A stretch of 50,639 nt of DNA from Planctomycetia bacterium. Lineage in GTDB: Bacteria > Planctomycetota > UBA8108 > SXIK01. A model generated the notes under the pieces. That model had not been told where the DNA came from. It searched no databases and saw only the letters and a program-made list of their open reading frames with translations. This document shows positions 15,202-25,110 of the stretch, in pieces. Within the stretch, counting starts at the first letter, position 1. Each line of letters starts with the position of its first letter. Location of the stretch: positions 1 through 50,639 of the forward strand of contig SXIK01000110.1 in the NCBI GenBank assembly GCA_005772855.1, written 5' to 3'. A program made the translations under genes and the position numbers.

Positions 15202-16362
15202 TTATGACTTCGGCGGCGTCGATTCCGGGGTCGGAGCAGGTTTTGACTCCTCGGGCTTGTTCTGCCCAGGGGGTGGAGTCGGCACGGGAGAGGGGGTGGC
15301 ACCCTTCTTGCCCTTGGGCCCGCTGCCCTCCCTCGCCTTTTCAGCGCCAGGACCCGTGCTCGGGGAGGCCGTGGTACCCTGAGCGGCCTTGGCATCCGGG
15401 CCAGCATTCGGCGCGAACGGCTTGCCCTCTGGCTTGACGAAGAGCTTGTCCGAGAGATTGGAGTTGAAACGGACATTCGTGTACTGGCGCTCGGTATCGA
15501 GGTCACCGTCGAGATAGATCTCTAGCTTGAGGGGAAACTTCACCTGAAGGCCCGAACCGTCCATGAAGGGCAGGTCGCGGTACTCTTTGTAGTACTGTTC
15601 CTTCTTCGAGGTGGCCTTCGGGTTCGAGCCCGCGTCCTGCCATTCTTTCTTGATCAGGAGAGCGTCCTTCTTCGAGAAAAAGTAGCGCTGATCCTGACGG
15701 CCGGAGAAATCCGTGACGACAACAATATCGCACGGGATGTCCTCCGACGTGCCCATGATCTCTTTTGGCGCGAGGGCTTGGCCCCCGATCGTGAGCGTGA
15801 AGCCGTCCTCCTTCCAGCGGCAGAAGAAGTCGTCCATCTGCTTGTCCCATACGAAGACCTGAAGGGTGCGACCATCGAGGGGTGAGACGGTGCCCAGCAT
15901 TTGCACCCAGCCCTCCCCGACGTTCCCGTTGTAGATCTGGTTAAATGCGAGCTTCTCACCCTTGATGTCAAATCCCTCAATATCCCACTCCTCACGGATC
16001 ATGATGCTATCCTTCATCATGAGGTTGATGTTGGCGACTGTGGGGCCCGTCGCAGCATGCTTGATATTGCGGAATTTCGTGGCTCGATCCTTTACCTTCG
16101 CAAGCAGCTCCCTGCCGCCAAGCGCCTTGAGGTAATTCTCAACGATGGCAATCGCCTGTGGATCACTCTCTCGTTTGACCTGAGCAGCGCCGGTCGTGTC
16201 GGGCGAAGAAATCGCAGGTGCGCCTGTGGCGGGTGCCAACTCGACTGGCTGGGGCGGGACTGCGGGGGGCTTCGAATCGACTGTGCCCTGAGCGTGGAGC
16301 GCAGTTGATCGGCTGAGCCAGAATCCAAGGGTGATAGCTATTGCCAGGGTAAACTTCCGCAT
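15202..16362 (-). CDS. Secreted protein, possibly with a LolA/LppX-like beta fold
   Basis: 386 residues from the ATG at 16362 (in-frame ATGs at 16368 and 16377 are possible; GGAGAG lies just ahead of the chosen one). A signal peptide ends around STALHAQG. A Pro-rich linker follows, then a domain starting AIVENYLKALGGRELLAKVKDR, a pattern seen in outer-membrane lipoprotein-sorting-like proteins that carry lipid in a beta-barrel cup. The middle has GNVGEGWVQMLG and FFSKKDALLIKKEW. The C-terminal 65 residues are Pro/Lys/Gly-rich and low complexity. The LolA-like assignment rests on pattern only. The role is unknown; it is transcribed alone, ending at the strong terminator at 15122. Confidence 0.7.
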   Translation of the reverse strand: MRKFTLAIAITLGFWLSRSTALHAQGTVDSKPPAVPPQPVELAPATGAPAISSPDTTGAAQVKRESDPQAIAIVENYLKALGGRELLAKVKDRATKFRNIKHAATGPTVANINLMMKDSIMIREEWDIEGFDIKGEKLAFNQIYNGNVGEGWVQMLGTVSPLDGRTLQVFVWDKQMDDFFCRWKEDGFTLTIGGQALAPKEIMGTSEDIPCDIVVVTDFSGRQDQRYFFSKKDALLIKKEWQDAGSNPKATSKKEQYYKEYRDLPFMDGSGLQVKFPLKLEIYLDGDLDTERQYTNVRFNSNLSDKLFVKPEGKPFAPNAGPDAKAAQGTTASPSTGPGAEKAREGSGPKGKKGATPSPVPTPPPGQNKPEESKPAPTPESTPPKS

Positions 16363-16634: not shown

Positions 16635-17849
16635 CTATTGGGTCTTCTTGGCGCCTCTCGCGGACTCGTTGGTCAATGCCTCCTCCTGCGAGTCAGGCGC
16701 GCACTTCCACTCCATCTCCCCGGGAATCGGGCCCTGCTTGTGCACGAACTCATACCCCTCTGAGTCGAGCCACCTGTAGATCACGTCAAGGGGCACAAAG
16801 AGCCCCATGTGCGGAACCACCGCGGGCTGCGTCTTGCCATAAGTATAGATCATGCTCGAAACACCGATCAGCTTCGAGCTCTCGGCCAGGTAGACTCCGC
16901 CACCCGAGTTTCCGAAAAAAGTCGGTGCGCTCAACATCCAAAAGACCTGGTCGGCCACGATTTTGGACTTGGAGGAGATCTCGCCCACGGTGGGCAGAGG
17001 ACGGTTGCCGAGCGGACAGCCCACGGCGTAGGCCCGCGAAAATATGTCAATGGCACCCAGCTCCGCCGGAGGCATGAGCTCCGCGACCTGCAAGAATCGT
17101 CGCGCGGACTTGAGACGCAGGAGGGCCAAGTCTCGGGGCCGGTCGTAGACGACCAGACGAGCCGCGAAGACCTCCATGGCGCCAGAGTCAGCCTCTGGCA
17201 GGATCTGGACCTCCTCTACCGTTCCATCGTCGGCCCTGTCTCCCAGGACCTCGACCACGACGTGATAGGCCGTCAGAACAAAGGTGGCATACTCCGACTC
17301 GCTGGCGACCCCCTTGCTCCACAACGGCTGGGAGTAAATGATGACCCCGCTTCCAACCGTGCCGTTGCCCTTCAGTTGAACGGTCGGGTGAATCATCTTC
17401 CGCTTCATCTCCTGCGGGTCCCGGGATGCCCCGGAAAAAATTCGCTCCAGGCGGGCGGTGCCAGCCTCGAGGGCGAACCGCGTGCTCGAGATTTGCTCCT
17501 GTTCGATCTCGATACGATCAACGAGAGAGCCCTCCATCTCACGGGTGCGCTCGTCGAGGAGGTCGAGCAGCTCAGCTCGCCGGTCATCCAGCCGCAGGAT
17601 GGCATCCTTGATCTCCCCTTGAGCCTTCGTGATCTCGAAGACGCAATCCTTCAGAGTGTCCTCGACTTGATCTCGAGTGGCTCCGAGCTCCGCGCTGTTG
17701 CGTGTCTCGGCAAAGACGATCCCGGCCCGTTGCCCGGAGATGTCGTGACGAACCCCGAGGATCTGATCCTGGAGCAGGAAAAACCCACCGAGGATCAACA
17801 AGATCCTGAGGCCCTCGCTGAGTATTTTCGGCCTTGCCCTGTCAGACAT
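16635..17849 (-). CDS. Membrane-anchored trypsin-like serine protease with coiled coil
   Basis: 404 residues; the ATG at 17849 follows a strong AAGGAGG, so a start 18 bases upstream is rejected. An N-terminal membrane segment (about 15-30) is followed by a long charged helical stretch (about 50-135) likely to form a coiled coil. The rest is a chymotrypsin-fold protease of the trypsin_2/DegP type without a visible PDZ domain. The catalytic triad is visible: His196 in LTAYHVV, Asp240 in RDLALLRL, Ser315 in FGNSGGGVYL. It is probably periplasmic or external quality control or signalling. The target is unknown. It lies downstream of the palindromic region at 17952-18097. Confidence 0.88.
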   Translation of the reverse strand: MSDRARPKILSEGLRILLILGGFFLLQDQILGVRHDISGQRAGIVFAETRNSAELGATRDQVEDTLKDCVFEITKAQGEIKDAILRLDDRRAELLDLLDERTREMEGSLVDRIEIEQEQISSTRFALEAGTARLERIFSGASRDPQEMKRKMIHPTVQLKGNGTVGSGVIIYSQPLWSKGVASESEYATFVLTAYHVVVEVLGDRADDGTVEEVQILPEADSGAMEVFAARLVVYDRPRDLALLRLKSARRFLQVAELMPPAELGAIDIFSRAYAVGCPLGNRPLPTVGEISSKSKIVADQVFWMLSAPTFFGNSGGGVYLAESSKLIGVSSMIYTYGKTQPAVVPHMGLFVPLDVIYRWLDSEGYEFVHKQGPIPGEMEWKCAPDSQEEALTNESARGAKKTQ

Positions 17850-17951: not shown

Positions 17952-18002
17952 GTACCGCGCGCCATGATGAGGTGCCTGAAATCTACCGGAGGCGCGCGGT
18001 AC
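17952..18002. repeat. REP-like palindromic element, copy A
   Basis: GTACCGCGCGCC (17952-17963) is a perfect 12-base inverted repeat of GGCGCGCGGTAC (17991-18002). The 27-base loop contains GTGCCTGAAAT at 17972-17982. The same plan appears in inverse orientation at 18046-18097 (copy B). Confidence 0.8.
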
Positions 18003-18006
18003 TCTT

Positions 18007-18030
18007 GAGGGGGGCCACGCTGCCCCCCTC
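18007..18030. repeat. G/C-rich hairpin between the two palindromic copies
   Basis: GAGGGGGGC (18007-18015) pairs perfectly with GCCCCCCTC (18022-18030) around a six-base loop. Without a U-tract on either side it is not a canonical terminator. It sits centrally between copies A and B. Confidence 0.8.
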
Positions 18031-18045
18031 ACAATCCCCTTGCCG

Positions 18046-18097
18046 AGTACCGCCCAGGAGCTGCATTTTCAGGCACTAACTTGCGGTGGGCGGTACT
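18046..18097. repeat. REP-like palindromic element, copy B (inverse orientation)
   Basis: AGTACCGCCCA (18046-18056) is a perfect 11-base inverted repeat of TGGGCGGTACT (18087-18097). The loop contains TTTCAGGCAC, the reverse complement of GTGCCTGAAA in copy A. Arms of both copies share GTACCGC...GCGGTAC. The pair therefore forms a head-to-head unit like the paired REP units (BIMEs) of enterobacteria. Confidence 0.8.
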
Positions 18098-18336
18098 GAG
18101 CTCCCCGCAAATGGCGAGGCGAGGTTGCCTCCTGTAGAACAATCCCGCGCCAGATTTGGACAGGAGGCCAATACACGCGCCGCAAAGCAGTCCCGGAAAA
18201 TCAGTTGTGGGCGCCCGCAGGTTTGGAGGGGGGAATTTGGCAAACCAGCCCCGCAAGGCCCTGTGGGCAACGCCAGGCCCCCACGAACACCCCGCGAGCG
18301 AGGAAGGCCCACGGAACAAGAGCGACGCAGCTCCTC

Positions 18337-21291
18337 CTACTTTGCCGCGATAATGCTTACCAGCTTGCCGGGCACCACTACCACCCTCTCGACACGCCGG
18401 GTGCCAAGCAACTCGATGATCTTCGGACGCAGGAGGGCTCTCGATTCGAGCTTCTCCACTTCAAGTCGCGAAGGTTGCACCATTCGGTCGCAAGGTCTGC
18501 CGTCGAGGTAGATCAAGAACTCCTTTTCGGGCGGGTGGATAAGCTCGTCGCTTGGAACGGGCCAGGAAGCTGTCTCGATGGGCTGAGTCTCCCCCATTCG
18601 ACTCCAGAGCTCCCTTGCCAGGAAAGGCGCGAAGGGGGACAAAAGGATCAAGAAGGTCCGCATGGCGCCACGGTCCATGTCTTCGGGAGCAGTGTCGGGA
18701 TCCTCAAGGAACCTCACGAACCGCATCAGCGCAGCGACGGCAGTATGTGTTTTCCACAGGGAGAGCCGTTGAGTTACCTCGTGGATTAGCAGGTGTTTGG
18801 CCACCAGCATGCGACGAGATACGAACCGTCCTCTCTCGCGCCGCAAGTTGACCTGGTGCCAAATCCTGTCGAGGAACTGGCGCGCTGAAAAGATCGCGTT
18901 CTCGCTAACCTCAACACGCCTGTCGAGTGGGCCCGCGAACAGAAGGGCAATCCGCAATGCGTCAGCACCGAATTGTTCTACCAAGTCCAGGGAACTCCCC
19001 GGTTGTCTGGGCTTCCCGGGCCTGGGGGAATGCACGAGTTGAGCGCCGCCGAATTCCTGAAGCCTTGCGAAGGGCTCCGAAACCGGCCATTGGCCCGATT
19101 CCTCGAGGAACTTGAAAAGGTAACGGACCCTGATGACGTCGAGGACCGATAGCCCGGAGCGACCCAATCCGACGGCGACCGGCAGGATTGCCTCCATCTT
19201 GTCACCGGCGAAGGGCCGGAGCTTGGAAAGGCGCTCCGCCTGAGACTCCTCCTGTGCGTCGTCCTCGTCGACTGAGGTCAAGTCCTCGGGCTCGTCGGCC
19301 CGCCGATGACCTCTGTCCTCACCGCGGGAGGCCAGGCTCGAAGGCCCCGGCACACTCACCGGCGCCACGGGAGCTGGATCGACAGGTTCGTCCGGGGCAC
19401 CACCCGTCAGCTCCTCACTCCCTCGCGTTCCCTCGGACTCCGGGGCAAATTCGTCCGGGCTCTCATCGCCAGCGTTCTCGTCGTTACCCTCCACGTCAAA
19501 GACGTCCCTATCCTCGGGCAGCCCCGGAGCGGCGTCGAGCGCTGGCACCGAGCCATCCGGGGAATCCTGGACTGTCGCCGCAGCTTCCTCGGGAGGAGCT
19601 GGTGTGCCGGAGACCGTCACGGCAGTGGCCACCTTCAGCGCCGTGCCGGCTTCTGCGAGATCGCGGAAGCCGTTGACCGGGCCCGCAAGCTCGGGCAGGA
19701 GCCCCGCAATCAAGCTCCACGCAGTGCCGAGCCACGGGTGGATCGTCTGCGTGTCCCGTGCGGCCGAGTCACCGCACCTGGGACAGGGGGTACGGACAAA
19801 GCTCTTTTCAGACTCGAGGGAGGGTTCGCCCTCCCTGGCTCTTCCCGGGTCGGCTCGGTGAGGACCGGGAGCCCCCGGAAACGGAGCCCGCAAGAGCTCC
19901 GACGGCAGTTCAACGGGCAGTGAAGCCTCGGGCACAGGCACCACCCCGCAACGTCTGCAATGCACCATGGGGACAGGGGCGCCGAATGGTGACGGCACGG
20001 AGAGCGTGAGCCAGCTCACGCGATACCGGGTAGTCCGCTGGCACACCCCTTTCCTCGAGAGAAGACTGAAAATGCGTTCGCCACCCACTCTCAAGGCGAG
20101 GCTTGTGAACGGGCCCGAGTTTGTCAGGACTCCGTCTCCAAGCCACGGCTCCTCAAGTTTCAAGTGAGAATCGAATTTCGCCTTGTCGCCGTGGATCACC
20201 TCACGGATCAAGAGCTTTTGCCGTCGAGCCAGCTCAAAGAGATCCTTGTCGTGCGCTGGCACACCAAGGATCACGCCGTTCGTGCCTCGCGCCTGGGCGA
20301 GGGTGCTGACGAGGATCGGAATCCGTCGAAGGTTGGCGGGATTGAGAGCAAAGCCTCCGATGCGAGCGGCAGAAATTCTCGGCTCGGCCCCCTTTCTGAT
20401 CCGTTCCCGATAGCGCTGGACATCGTCCTCGTACGCCGGGTCCAGTAGCTGCTCGAGGAGAGGATGGTAGGGATCGAGCAGGATGAACGTGACGCCGAAA
20501 ATCCGCTCGATCCTGGTCGTAAATGCCGTGATCTCCACGTAATCGTCGAGGAAGATCCGTGAAGCAGGAAAGGTGACCTCACAGCCGTGCACGCGACCGA
20601 TCACTTCTTTCTGCTCCGCTGCCTGACCCGGCGAGAAGCCCGCACGCTCGAGGTCGTGGAGGAGCTTCTCTGCGTAGGGGCTCAGGTCAGCCCGCCACTC
20701 CATGACCTCGCCTGCCTTGAGCTCACCCTGACAGTCGCTACAGGCAGCGACGTGGCCGAAGTTGTGCTTCTTTCCACAACGGGAACAGAGGTCATAGTGG
20801 GTCTTTACCCGGCTCACAAGGCCGCGAAGGTACAGCTGGAGAAAGATCCACTGCGTAAAGCGGTAGTAGGACGGTTCGCCCGTCTCCACCAGCTTGGCTT
20901 CGGGGCTGACTCCAATGGCTTTCAGGAGCGCGCGATGGCCGGCGGCGTGAGCTTCCGCTCGCCGACAGAGCGTCTGGCCCAGCGCTCGGGCCTCTGCGAA
21001 GATTCCGGGACTGAAGGTGTCGAGGACCCGGGGCGACACGACCGCTTCCGAGCGGTTTCGCGAGAAACGTACAAAAGTGTCAGCCGCCAGCCACTGGCGG
21101 GTGAGCGAAAGGTCGGCATCGGGTCCCAACGCCTCGGCGGGCCACGGAAACACATACTTGGGAAGTTTTCCTCCGACCACACCCTCCCTGGCAGCATCCA
21201 CCTCCACCACTTGTGGAAAAGCCTCTGCCTCCAAAGCCTGTCTCCACCTGGCTTCCACCTCTCCGAACGGGTATTCAGTTCGTCTCTCCAT
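18337..21291 (-). CDS. Leucyl-tRNA synthetase-like protein lacking HIGH and KMSKS motifs
   Basis: 984 residues from the ATG at 21291. The whole LeuRS plan can be followed: N-terminal YPFGEVEARW; YYRFTQWIFLQLY (about 142-154); a zinc knuckle CSRCG...CSDC (about 169-187); a CP1 editing-type domain (about 241-385) with FTTRIERIFGVTF and GVPAHDKDLFELA; a second knuckle HCRRCG...CPRCG (about 444-507); LVEQFGADALRIALLF; and helical anticodon-binding PFAPFLARELWSRMG. But GLHVGH is replaced by GPDADL (about 56-61), TMDTFVDSSWY by TIHPWLGTAWS, and the KMSKS segment by RPGKPRQPGS. An acidic low-complexity insertion fills about 560-690. Aminoacylation is therefore very unlikely. The editing site keeps TTR and the Asp of HD but has Arg where TTRPDT has its last Thr. 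It could be a trans-editing, tRNA-binding or regulatory protein. A true leuS must lie elsewhere. Confidence 0.85.
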   Translation of the reverse strand: MERRTEYPFGEVEARWRQALEAEAFPQVVEVDAAREGVVGGKLPKYVFPWPAEALGPDADLSLTRQWLAADTFVRFSRNRSEAVVSPRVLDTFSPGIFAEARALGQTLCRRAEAHAAGHRALLKAIGVSPEAKLVETGEPSYYRFTQWIFLQLYLRGLVSRVKTHYDLCSRCGKKHNFGHVAACSDCQGELKAGEVMEWRADLSPYAEKLLHDLERAGFSPGQAAEQKEVIGRVHGCEVTFPASRIFLDDYVEITAFTTRIERIFGVTFILLDPYHPLLEQLLDPAYEDDVQRYRERIRKGAEPRISAARIGGFALNPANLRRIPILVSTLAQARGTNGVILGVPAHDKDLFELARRQKLLIREVIHGDKAKFDSHLKLEEPWLGDGVLTNSGPFTSLALRVGGERIFSLLSRKGVCQRTTRYRVSWLTLSVPSPFGAPVPMVHCRRCGVVPVPEASLPVELPSELLRAPFPGAPGPHRADPGRAREGEPSLESEKSFVRTPCPRCGDSAARDTQTIHPWLGTAWSLIAGLLPELAGPVNGFRDLAEAGTALKVATAVTVSGTPAPPEEAAATVQDSPDGSVPALDAAPGLPEDRDVFDVEGNDENAGDESPDEFAPESEGTRGSEELTGGAPDEPVDPAPVAPVSVPGPSSLASRGEDRGHRRADEPEDLTSVDEDDAQEESQAERLSKLRPFAGDKMEAILPVAVGLGRSGLSVLDVIRVRYLFKFLEESGQWPVSEPFARLQEFGGAQLVHSPRPGKPRQPGSSLDLVEQFGADALRIALLFAGPLDRRVEVSENAIFSARQFLDRIWHQVNLRRERGRFVSRRMLVAKHLLIHEVTQRLSLWKTHTAVAALMRFVRFLEDPDTAPEDMDRGAMRTFLILLSPFAPFLARELWSRMGETQPIETASWPVPSDELIHPPEKEFLIYLDGRPCDRMVQPSRLEVEKLESRALLRPKIIELLGTRRVERVVVVPGKLVSIIAAK

Positions 21292-21573: not shown

Positions 21574-21649
21574 GGGGGATTAGCTCAGCTGGGAGAGCGC
21601 AGCGATGGCATCGCTGAGGTCAGGGGTTCGATCCCCCTATCCTCCACCA
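21574..21649 (+). tRNA. tRNA-Ala(GGC)
   Basis: Full cloverleaf: acceptor GGGGGAT/ATCCTCC, D-arm AGCTCAGCTGGGAGAGC, anticodon stem CAGCG/CGCTG around loop ATGGCAT (anticodon GGC), T-arm AGGGGTTCGATCCCCCT, discriminator A and an encoded CCA at 21647-21649. The acceptor stem has the G3-U70 wobble pair, the alanine identity mark. A terminator follows at once. Confidence 0.97.
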
Positions 21650-21765: not shown

Positions 21766-23394
21766 GTGATAGCGCAATTCGTTTTAATATCAAGACTTAC
21801 ACCGAAAAAAATGGCCTTTGCTCTGTGGGCTGGGCTCCTCGCCATCAGTAGCGGCTCTGGACCTGGATTGTCTCCTGCGCTGGCACAGGGTGATCCGCTG
21901 GAACGTCAACGGCAGCCGGAGGATGCGCCCCAGATGCTCATCGTGCCGGTCACGGGAGTGATAGACAAGGCTCTCACCGACTCACTCATTCGCCAGATTC
22001 AGACCGAGATGGCCCGGAGCGACTATCGACACATTCGGTACGTCCTTTTCGAGATCGACTCCCCGGGAGGGGACCTCGAAGCAGCACAAAAACTCTCGGA
22101 GTTCATCCTCGAGAGCTTGAAGGGCCTCACCACGATTGCCTTCGTACCTCCGGGCAAGCTATCGCTTGCCGAGAGCCTCCTCGTGACCTTCTCGGCAAAG
22201 GAGCTCATCCTCGGAGGTGAGGCACGTCTCGGCGCCGATCTCGGCCGCTCGCCGTCGCCAGAGCAAGACCGCGAGCTGCGGGATCGTCTGAGAGTTGTCG
22301 CCGGCGCCCGGGGCTATCCCAGCCTGGTCCTCGACGCCATGGCCACGAACCAGCATGACGAGGTCTACTCCCAACGGGTGGCCGTGGGGCTCAACGCAGA
22401 AGAAACAAAGTTCCGAACCAAGAGCGACCTCGATGTCGACCTCCGCGGTGCGCGAGGCGAGCCCGTGCGCGTGATTCAAAAGGGGGAGCGTCTCGTGGTC
22501 TCCGCGAGAGAAGCAAGCGAGAAGTTCAAGCTCACCCAACACAGCGCGGACAACCTCTCCGAGCTTCAAATCGCGCTTGGAATCAGCGTCGCCGAGGAAA
22601 ACCAGCTCGGGCTCGGAAGCGGCCCCCGCAAGCTGGCCGCTGCCCCGGGCCTCCAGGGCCTCATCGAGGCGTTCAACACCCCTCTGGCACGCTTCCTGTT
22701 AATTCTCTGCGGCTGCCTGGCGGCCCTGATCGAGGTCAAGACCTTGGGGACTTCGATCGCGGGCATATTTTCTGTGTTCTGTTTCGGCATCTTTTTCCTT
22801 GCGGGGAGCCTTCCCACGCAGGCTCATCCACTTGGAACGGCCACACTCTGGGAAGTGATCCTCTTCGTCATTGGCCTCTCGCTCTTCGCGCTCGAGTTCC
22901 TCTTGCTCCCGGGCATGGCCATCTTCGCGATCTCGGGTGCCGCTCTCTGTGCGGTAAGCCTCGTTCTCGCCATGCTCCCTGCCGACGCCTCCGAGCTCGC
23001 AGGAAAGCAAACCATGGGCGACGCGATTGAGAGCGCGATCGCAACCCTCTCCTACGGCTTCGCGGGAGGTTGCCTTCTTTTCTTGCTCCTTGTGCGAATC
23101 CTCGCTCGCAGGGCAGGACCCTCGGGGGGGTTGGTCACGAGCGCGACGATTACCGGCGTTGCAACGGCGAATTCGGCAATCGCTGCTCAGACAATCCAGG
23201 CGGAGCTGATCGGGAAATCGGGCGTGGTTTCGACGACTCTTCGGCCTGCGGGCAAGGTGGAGCTTGCCCAAGGCCAGGTGCTCGACGTGGTTACCCTGGG
23301 TGAGTACATCGAGAAGGGCACTCGCGTGCGCGTGGCGTCGATCGAAAGCGGTGTGATCACGGTAACCCGGGAGAGTTCTCCAAACTCGAGCTGA
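21766..23394 (+). CDS. Long NfeD-family membrane protein with ClpP-like domain
   Basis: 542 residues: a signal-like hydrophobic N-terminus (ending near SPALAQG), a ClpP/crotonase-type domain at about 45-230 (YVLFEIDSPGGDLEAA), several membrane segments at about 300-445, and a C-terminal NfeD OB-fold domain at about 480-540 (GKSGVVSTTLRPAGKV, YIEKGTRVRVASIE). NfeD1b proteins are membrane proteases working with stomatin/flotillin partners. Here the usual nucleophile motif (ASAG type) reads KLSLAESLL, so the Ser-Lys protease may be altered or inactive. The start is GTG 21766 or ATG 21811; neither has a clear ribosome-binding site. It is the first gene of an operon with a short NfeD and FloA. Confidence 0.85.
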   Translation: MIAQFVLISRLTPKKMAFALWAGLLAISSGSGPGLSPALAQGDPLERQRQPEDAPQMLIVPVTGVIDKALTDSLIRQIQTEMARSDYRHIRYVLFEIDSPGGDLEAAQKLSEFILESLKGLTTIAFVPPGKLSLAESLLVTFSAKELILGGEARLGADLGRSPSPEQDRELRDRLRVVAGARGYPSLVLDAMATNQHDEVYSQRVAVGLNAEETKFRTKSDLDVDLRGARGEPVRVIQKGERLVVSAREASEKFKLTQHSADNLSELQIALGISVAEENQLGLGSGPRKLAAAPGLQGLIEAFNTPLARFLLILCGCLAALIEVKTLGTSIAGIFSVFCFGIFFLAGSLPTQAHPLGTATLWEVILFVIGLSLFALEFLLLPGMAIFAISGAALCAVSLVLAMLPADASELAGKQTMGDAIESAIATLSYGFAGGCLLFLLLVRILARRAGPSGGLVTSATITGVATANSAIAAQTIQAELIGKSGVVSTTLRPAGKVELAQGQVLDVVTLGEYIEKGTRVRVASIESGVITVTRESSPNSS

Positions 23395-23430
23395 GTAGCC
23401 AGGGCACTTGCCAGCAGAGGCTGAAAACAA

Positions 23431-23904
23431 ATGGAATTGATCTTGAACGATTGGCGCGTGGCTTTCGTATTCCTCGGGCTCGGTGTCCTGTCCCTATTCC
23501 TCGAAGTCTTTGTGCCCTCGGGGGGCATCCTCGGCATCCTGGGCGTCTCCTTCGCTGGCTTCGGAATCTACGAGCTTTTTGCGCATGGCCACGTGGCCCT
23601 CGGCTGGGTGTCAATCGTCGTCACCTGCGCGGCAGCTTTTTTCGGGCTCCGTTTCGGTCTGCGGAGACTTGCCTTGCGCGGGTCCCTTCCAGTCGCGCTT
23701 ACTGGACCGCCCGAGGATTTCCTGGCCTCCCTCGTGGGCAAGGAAGGAATTGTGCAGACGGCCCTTCGTCCAGCCGGCGCTGCCTTGATTGACGGGCAGA
23801 GGGTGGATGTCGTCTCTCAGGGTCAATTTGTCAATACAGGCGCCCACGTACGGGTCGTGGCAACGGAAGAAAACCGTATTGTGGTGCGAGAGGTCACCGC
23901 TTAG
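23431..23904 (+). CDS. Short NfeD-family membrane protein
   Basis: 157 residues with two or three membrane segments at about 10-75 and a C-terminal NfeD OB-fold domain at about 95-157 (GKEGIVQTALRPAGAALIDGQRVDVV, FVNTGAHVRVVATEENRIVV). Its last domain is similar to that of the preceding gene, so the pair looks like a long and a short NfeD encoded in series. NfeD proteins interact with flotillin/stomatin-type proteins; floA follows directly. Confidence 0.88.
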   Translation: MELILNDWRVAFVFLGLGVLSLFLEVFVPSGGILGILGVSFAGFGIYELFAHGHVALGWVSIVVTCAAAFFGLRFGLRRLALRGSLPVALTGPPEDFLASLVGKEGIVQTALRPAGAALIDGQRVDVVSQGQFVNTGAHVRVVATEENRIVVREVTA

Positions 23905-23915
23905 AGTACCGCTTC

Positions 23916-23959
23916 AGCTCGGGCCAACCACGCCCTGAAATTTCCTTCAGGCCCGAGCT
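23916..23959. repeat. Intergenic inverted repeat between nfeD and floA
   Basis: AGCTCGGGCC (23916-23925) is a perfect inverted repeat of GGCCCGAGCT (23950-23959), with a smaller CCTGAA/TTCAGG hairpin inside. There is no U-run, so processing, mRNA stability or partial attenuation ahead of floA is more likely than termination. Confidence 0.6.
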
Positions 23960-23988
23960 CCCTGACCCATTGAGTTTGAGGAGAATTA

Positions 23989-25110
23989 ATGCTTTCACAC
24001 CCCCTGACTGTTGAGATCACCACCTTTGTCCTGTCCCAGGCCGGCCGGGGCGTTCGGCTAGATATCAGTGCCCTCGATATCGTCAAGTGGGCTGGAATAC
24101 TTTTCGCTGTCATCCTGGGAATCGCCCTCTTCTTCTTCTTCGTGAAGTTTGGGGCGCTGTGGCTCCAGTCAATCTCGTCGAACTGCCCTGTCAAGATTGG
24201 TGAGTTCGTCGGCATGTACCTCAGAAAAATCGACCCACGATTGATCGTCGATGTGCTGGTCGCCACAACGAAAGCGGGCATCCCTGTCCATGTCGACAAG
24301 CTCCAGGCGCACGTTCTGGCACGGGGGAACGTGCGGGATGTGGTGCAAGCCCTGATCGCGTCGTCGAGAGCCAATATCAACCTTGGATTCGAGCGCGCTG
24401 CTGCGATCGACCTCGCCGGCCGCGACGTCCTGGATGCCGTGCGCACGAGCGTTCACCCCAAGGTCATCGACTGTCCCAACCCGGCTCGCGGCCGCACAAC
24501 TATCGACGCGGTGGCGAAGAACGGAATCCAGCTCCGAATCAAGGCCCGCGTTACGGTCCGCACCAACCTTGAGCGTCTTGTGGGCGGCGCGACGGAGGAG
24601 ACCGTCATAGCGCGTGTGGGAGAGGGCATCGTTGCGGCCGTCGGTCAGGCGGACTCGCACAAGGACGTGCTCGCCAACCCACGCATGATTTCCAGAGAGG
24701 TGCTCAACGCCGGCCTCGACGCCGGGACTGCCTTCGATATTGTGTCGATTGACATCGCCGACGTGGATGTCGGCGAGAACGTCGGTGCGAAGCTGATGGC
24801 GGACCAGGCCGAGGCCGAGAAACGCAAGGCGCAGGCGGAAGCCGAGGCGCAGCGAGCCATGGCCGTGGCCCGGGCTCAGGAGATGGAAGCTCTCCAGCGC
24901 GAGAACAGAGCCAAGGTGATCCTGGCGGAGGCGGAGATTCCAATGGCCATCGCCGAGGCGTTCCGCACGGGCAACCTGGGTATCAACGACTACTACAACT
25001 TCCAAAACATCCAGGCCGACACACGCATGCGCAACACGCTGGCCGAAAGCGCAAGCTCTGGTGTCGGCTCCAGCGGCGGTGGAACCCAGTCGACAGGACA
25101 AGAGACCTGA
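23989..25110 (+). CDS. floA: Flotillin-like protein FloA
   Basis: 373 residues. An N-terminal hydrophobic hairpin at about 35-60 anchors it in the membrane. An SPFH-like domain follows (about 60-240: [71 protein letters not shown]). The C-terminal Glu/Ala-rich coiled coil ([23 protein letters not shown]) and [13 protein letters not shown] are typical of the FloA/YqfA family. It organises membrane microdomains. Order nfeD-floA matches yqeZ-yqfA of Bacillus. Confidence 0.94.

Follow-up and report, generated by a model that had tools for sequence, protein, structure and literature searches.

Genes at the locus

The window, i.e., the whole stretch of 50,639 nucleotides analyzed here (contig SXIK01000110.1), comes from a genome of the Planctomycetota (class UBA8108, order SXIK01) whose assembly is 96% complete. 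The 22 PSD1 domains counted and the FloA/NfeD neighbors of the gene studied here are in keeping with this phylum. On the minus strand, positions 18337–21291 encode a leucyl-tRNA synthetase (LeuRS) homologue in a single open frame of 984 amino acids plus stop, with the ATG at 21291 and the stop codon at 18337. Directly downstream on the same strand lies the gene for a membrane-anchored trypsin-like protease (16635–17849), followed, again on the minus strand, by that for a predicted secreted, class-specific protein with a LolA/RseB-like fold (15202–16362). One copy of a palindromic interspersed repeat (17952–18102) sits between the first two genes, outside the conserved unit; the element is about 150 bp long and REP/MITE-like, with about 22 further full or partial copies in the genome at 76–96% identity. 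Upstream of the LeuRS homologue, and divergent to it, are a tRNA-Ala(GGC) gene (21574–21649) and genes for an NfeD1b-type protein, a short NfeD, and FloA (21766–25110). Neither a T-box nor any other RNA element was found.

The protein encoded at 18337–21291 retains the domain order and fold of bacterial LeuRS, as judged by Pfam, alignment, and predicted structure. It matches the leuS_bact profile (TIGR00396) with an E value of 9e-90 and 302 bits, under the equivalog cut-off of 548.4 bits, and Pfam places a LeuRS editing domain (PF13603) at residues 230–408 and Anticodon_1 (PF08264) at residues 828–922. In a comparison with solved LeuRS, Thermus thermophilus LeuRS (1h3n) matched with an E value of 2e-81. 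The predicted structure (mean pLDDT 75) has a LeuRS fold, with 2bte as the top PDB match (TM 0.70/0.78). An acidic insert in the second half of the Rossmann fold (residues 541–692; 19216–19671, minus strand) is modeled with low confidence, pLDDT being below 50 across most of residues 536–693, and is probably disordered. An earlier note, made from the DNA alone, had described a full-length LeuRS homologue with no frameshift and without its charging motifs, and had proposed predicting the structure; the frame, profile, Pfam, alignment, and model all agree with that description. We refer to this gene and its orthologues as dead LeuRS.

Loss of the charging and editing residues

Conservation was followed in a class sample of 29 genomes from 6 families and 13 genera; motifs were read in 17 of these, and G004, G007, G008, and G016 were covered over part of the gene. 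The residues of the window protein aligned with HIGH are 60–63 (21103–21114, minus strand), which read DLSL and lack both histidines. The earlier note had placed this loss at GPDADL, which overlaps D60-L61-S62-L63; the loss held up, with the aligned residues shifted. It had correctly read the KMSKS-loop equivalent as RPGKPRQPGS (residues 757–766; 18994–19023, minus strand) and the DSSWY position as GTAWS. Neither HIGH histidine is retained in any of the 15 dead copies compared (family f4 set aside), and HIGH and KMSKS are both gone in 17/17 genomes with motifs read. The GADALR helix and the anticodon-binding bundle named in the same note are present in the window protein, as are both CxxC pairs of its zinc knuckles, although the first pair is not conserved in most orthologues. 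As strongly as sequence allows, tRNA charging by dead LeuRS is excluded, and formation of leucyl-adenylate would not be expected because the ATP motifs are absent.

The CP1 editing-type domain (about residues 231–419; 20035–20601, minus strand) keeps its fold according to PF13603, the alignment, and the predicted structure. Its supposed motif GVPAHDKD did not survive closer alignment: it is out of register with HDxRD, and the place of the catalytic aspartate in T. thermophilus LeuRS is taken by leucine at codon 351 (20239–20241, minus strand). We take the universal catalytic editing aspartate to be D345 in Escherichia coli and D347 in T. thermophilus. It is found in 0/15 dead copies, position 351 being L, Q, or H, and the Thr252 position is changed in nearly all of them (in six of the seven from the window's order). 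Members of that order largely keep the TTR of TTRPDT and the HD, without the catalytic aspartate, and the f5 and f6 copies have mostly lost the TT(R) threonines. Editing by dead LeuRS is thus unlikely. This bears on the suggestion in the earlier note that the protein clears mischarged tRNA-Leu in trans, a role for which the preserved CP1 fold and the TTR and HD of the window's order would be suited. However, with GVPAHDKD out of register, the aspartate lost in 15/15, and the Thr252 position and most of the f5/f6 threonines altered as well, a trans-editing factor appears improbable. Nor is there an obvious need for a further editor, as the class's working LeuRS have intact editing motifs wherever that region is covered.

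Distribution and coexistence with a working leuS

All 29 class genomes contain dead LeuRS, and the frame is intact in nearly all copies. In G004, the gene is split where the assembly has a run of N. In G008 (L046, G008:C76), two overlapping frames occur in a region with ambiguous bases, reflecting either a frameshift or an artefact. The f4 copies (G010 and G012) are highly divergent, with profile scores of 264 and 269 bits spread over three stretches; both the profile and their place among the neighboring genes served to recognize them. When contigs were searched with the dead-LeuRS alignment of the window's order, only ordinary LeuRS of other phyla were returned.

The earlier note had proposed looking for a second, normal leuS in the same genome. 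One is present on another contig (G000:C24, G000 being the genome of the window); it scores 887 bits, above the cut-off, carries GLHVGH and KMGKS, and has its editing motif intact. The absence of any other leuS, which that note had named as a refutation, is thereby contradicted. Dead and working LeuRS occur together in every class genome that is at least 90% complete. No working leuS was found in G001, G005, G008, G009, and G023, which are 55–80% complete, and incompleteness is the simplest reason for this. Dead copies can themselves exceed the leuS_bact cut-off, e.g., in f6/f5, G023:C248 (L048) with 723 bits and G027:C121 (L066) with 618 bits, so that automatic annotation would name f5/f6 copies of this kind leucine--tRNA ligase. 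Such misannotation matters in practice, as LeuRS serves as a marker gene (PMC4452313).

Origin and selection

In maximum likelihood trees, a single branch with an SH-aLRT of 100 sets the dead copies apart from the rest. The trees were built by a quick method with SH-aLRT as the sole support measure and no bootstrap, and the figure of 100 was obtained without the f4 rows and without row L120, which was dropped as evidently in the wrong frame (branch length 9.5). The working LeuRS of the class fall into three clades, i.e., those of f5 near G046/G051, those of the window's order with G030/G041, and those of f4 with G038. Since the dead copies form one clade and the working copies three, the dead gene did not arise recently from the working gene now present; the deep position of its clade is uncertain because the branches are long. 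This pattern fits one old paralogue descending vertically while the working leuS genes were exchanged. The derivation of working leuS genes from three clades (G000:C24, L054/L056, L049/L051) suggests, in its own right, repeated replacement of an essential gene.

Dead LeuRS might assist the working LeuRS, or tRNA-Leu itself, as an accessory subunit or chaperone, in keeping with the common fold and descent of the two proteins and with the constant presence of a working leuS in near-complete genomes. A co-evolved subunit would, however, hardly tolerate working enzymes from three clades, and we consider this role quite improbable.

Pairwise Nei-Gojobori dN/dS values for the dead copies are 0.05–0.18 in close f5 pairs and 0.15–0.30 within genus g3 of the window's order, and mostly 0.05–0.2 in related genera, many wider pairs with saturated dS having been left out. 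Working copies in close pairs give 0.04–0.12 and the protease 0.09–0.44. The dead LeuRS gene is under purifying selection. The checks by tree and codon-level selection proposed at the outset therefore recovered a single dead clade that is selectively maintained, in line with the earlier view that selection keeps a non-charging LeuRS. A pseudogene or frameshift artefact was ruled out by the unbroken 984-residue frame of the window gene together with dN/dS. A decaying relic without function would account for the eroded catalytic halves, above all those of f4; contradicted by the selection test, by the intact frame in nearly all genomes, and by the presence of the gene throughout the class, it is hardly conceivable.

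Shift of constraint to the anticodon-binding bundle

We compared the 15 dead copies (f4 again set aside) with 14 working copies residue by residue. Of the residues that never vary in working LeuRS, the dead set has lost 34, and 33 of these, including both HIGH histidines and the editing aspartate, lie outside the anticodon-binding helical region (residues 783–922; 18526–18945, minus strand; PF08264 and alignment). Another 18 residues are fixed or almost fixed among the dead copies and seldom occur among the working ones; 16 of these fall within the bundle, namely L783, R817, G821, F823, R826, L829, V830, K832, L835, A854, D873, T879, S914, E916, P920, and E922. The new and lost residues differ in their placement relative to the bundle with a Fisher P of 1.2e-10, a value that speaks to placement rather than function because invariance in this very alignment was the criterion for picking the signature. 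The core of the new signature, R-x3-G-x-FVSR-xx-LV-x-KH-x-LI, spans residues 817–836 (18784–18843, minus strand). Helices of the bundle are predicted at 797–820, 826–844, 848–863, and 874–884, and many of the new residues lie in or near two inter-helix loops that, going by these boundaries, should lie at one end of the bundle.

The same shift appears when dead and working copies of the same f5 genomes are compared. Conservation of the bundle is 0.73 in dead versus 0.69 in working copies, whereas the HIGH half stands at 0.70 versus 0.86 and other core parts are also lower in the dead copies; in no region but the bundle do the dead copies diverge less than the working ones. The f5/f6 copies and those of the window's order have in common the loss of the ATP motifs, the loss of the editing aspartate, and the new bundle signature. 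Family f4, the most decayed, lacks an FVSR-type signature, and the signature is therefore not universal to the dead clade.

The families differ in the state of the old active site. The leucine-pocket positions, which we take to be M40, F41, Y43, D80, E532, H533, and H537 in E. coli numbering and which were placed by motif, are intact in 8/8 f5/f6 copies, all of which read SxxQ in place of HIGH and lack KMSKS; no such pocket survives in the window's order. Repurposing is seen here at different stages, from f6/f5, which retain the amino-acid pocket, to the window's order, which has lost it, and to f4, whose decay is the most advanced. An intact pocket beside lost ATP motifs would be expected of a non-catalytic sensor that signals the state of the leucine and/or tRNA-Leu it binds. 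Given the destroyed pocket in the window's order, sensing would not be the function of the present gene unless tRNA alone were sensed, and we regard a sensor as doubtful. The uniform SxxQ of f5/f6 could likewise hint at an enzyme with changed chemistry at a remodeled Rossmann site. Yet the old active site holds no catalytic-looking residues common to f5/f6 and the window's order, and its identity among members of that order is 0.29, which makes such an enzyme very improbable.

A conserved protease neighbor

The protease combines an N-terminal hydrophobic stretch (identified by eye), a coiled-coil-like region, and a trypsin-like domain (PF13365), with no PDZ domain detected by Pfam. Its triad, H213, D257, and S332 (P0002), is invariant in 14 homologues. 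The gene was found in 27 of the 29 class genomes and adjoins dead LeuRS in all 27; the remaining two have a contig end at this point. The gap between the two genes is about 130–490 bp, the larger gap in the window being enlarged by the repeat. Usually next after the protease is the gene for the LolA/RseB-like protein, which occurs in 20 of 294 genomes of the phylum, all 20 of them class members. A signal sequence was predicted for it by eye and Pfam gave no match; Foldseek returned DUF1329, LolA/LolB, and RseB at 1e-9 to 1e-4 with low TM (model pLDDT 64), and confidence in the fold is modest.

Neither the protease gene nor the LolA-like gene was found at canonical leuS loci, inside or outside the class, and the genes around canonical leuS differ from family to family (at best 5 of 14 genomes, in one family). 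A tie between the protease and LeuRS in general was considered and rejected, given that canonical leuS loci lack the protease and that, outside the class, no gene resembling LeuRS or the LolA-like protein lies near its homologues. About half of these outside loci (L191–L209) lie, by eye, within a few kb of an ECF-sigma-like gene. Parts of the FloA/NfeD and RlmN-like block are also kept in several relatives, and general gene-order conservation may contribute to the adjacency of dead LeuRS and protease.

A candidate non-catalytic role

We judge it probable, at roughly 0.6, that dead LeuRS is a non-catalytic binding or regulatory protein that works through its tRNA-binding bundle and is possibly tied to envelope proteolysis. 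It would represent a single, ancient bacterial LeuRS paralogue with no charging and very probably no editing, kept by a whole class of Planctomycetota for a new, non-catalytic task. What selection maintains would no longer be the active site but the anticodon-binding bundle with its own fixed residues. Most likely, it would act in the cytoplasm as a binding or adaptor protein, its modified bundle docking tRNA (by descent, tRNA-Leu), a protein partner, or both, while the former Rossmann and CP1 domains provide a scaffold. We infer tRNA as the ligand from descent and from the retained bundle and C-terminal domain. Of the roles put forward in the earlier note, holding tRNA for another process is closer to the evidence than trans-editing, the bundle being the best-conserved part and bearing new invariant residues.

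The constant partners, a membrane-anchored protease and a predicted secreted protein with a LolA/RseB-like fold, would suggest a task at the cell envelope, and it is gene adjacency that points to this link. Both partners would act outside the cytoplasm according to their predicted signals, and direct contact with a cytoplasmic dead LeuRS is therefore not obvious. It is unlikely that the protease and the LolA/RseB-like protein make up a class-specific module for envelope proteolysis or stress in which dead LeuRS would be the cytoplasmic component and would link the envelope to tRNA or amino-acid status. Counted against the non-catalytic binding role are the f4 copies without the signature, the gene gap, and the equally retained FloA/NfeD and RlmN-like genes.

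Comparison with known systems

The nearest solved relative of dead LeuRS is bacterial LeuRS (TIGR00396; T. thermophilus 1h3n/2bte), which has the same domain order and predicted fold. The window protein differs from it in lacking HIGH, KMSKS, DSSWY, and the editing aspartate, in scoring below the curated cut-off, and in its acidic insert and new bundle residues. As for the neighbors only, the DegS/RseB pair likewise has a membrane-anchored trypsin-like protease, together with a LolA/RseB-fold protein, the fold predicted with modest confidence for the third gene here; in contrast, the protease described here has no PDZ domain, the RseB match is a weak fold similarity, and no anti-sigma factor was identified at the locus. 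The open literature, with subscription journals mostly uncovered, yielded no bacterial LeuRS kept class-wide without the ATP motifs and the editing aspartate.

HisZ, a regulatory subunit, differs from dead LeuRS in its class II fold and known enzyme partner. HisZ-type paralogues nevertheless resemble dead LeuRS in reusing a synthetase fold without tRNA charging (PMC9437257). The same paper, a review of duplicated synthetases, describes two archaeal cases. LeuRS-I of Sulfolobaceae is reported to bind tRNA-Leu and make leucyl-adenylate without charging (PMC9437257, citing Weitzel 2020); like dead LeuRS, it is a second LeuRS that does not charge, and it is important for growth and has a disrupted CP1 domain (PMC9437257). 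Unlike dead LeuRS, it is archaeal, and adenylate formation needs the ATP site that dead LeuRS has lost. The comparison with LeuRS-I, drawn in the earlier note, is an analogy only. LeuRS2 of Halobacteria is also a duplicate LeuRS, with strongly reduced charging and retained tRNA affinity (PMC9437257, citing Fang 2014). It differs in its archaeal hosts and in the low charging that remains, and the review describes no comparable loss of both ATP motifs (PMC9437257). Neither LeuRS-I nor haloarchaeal LeuRS2, as described there, has the combination seen in dead LeuRS. Dead synthetase paralogues with new roles are already known, and the residues and gene neighborhood of this one provide precise targets for testing.
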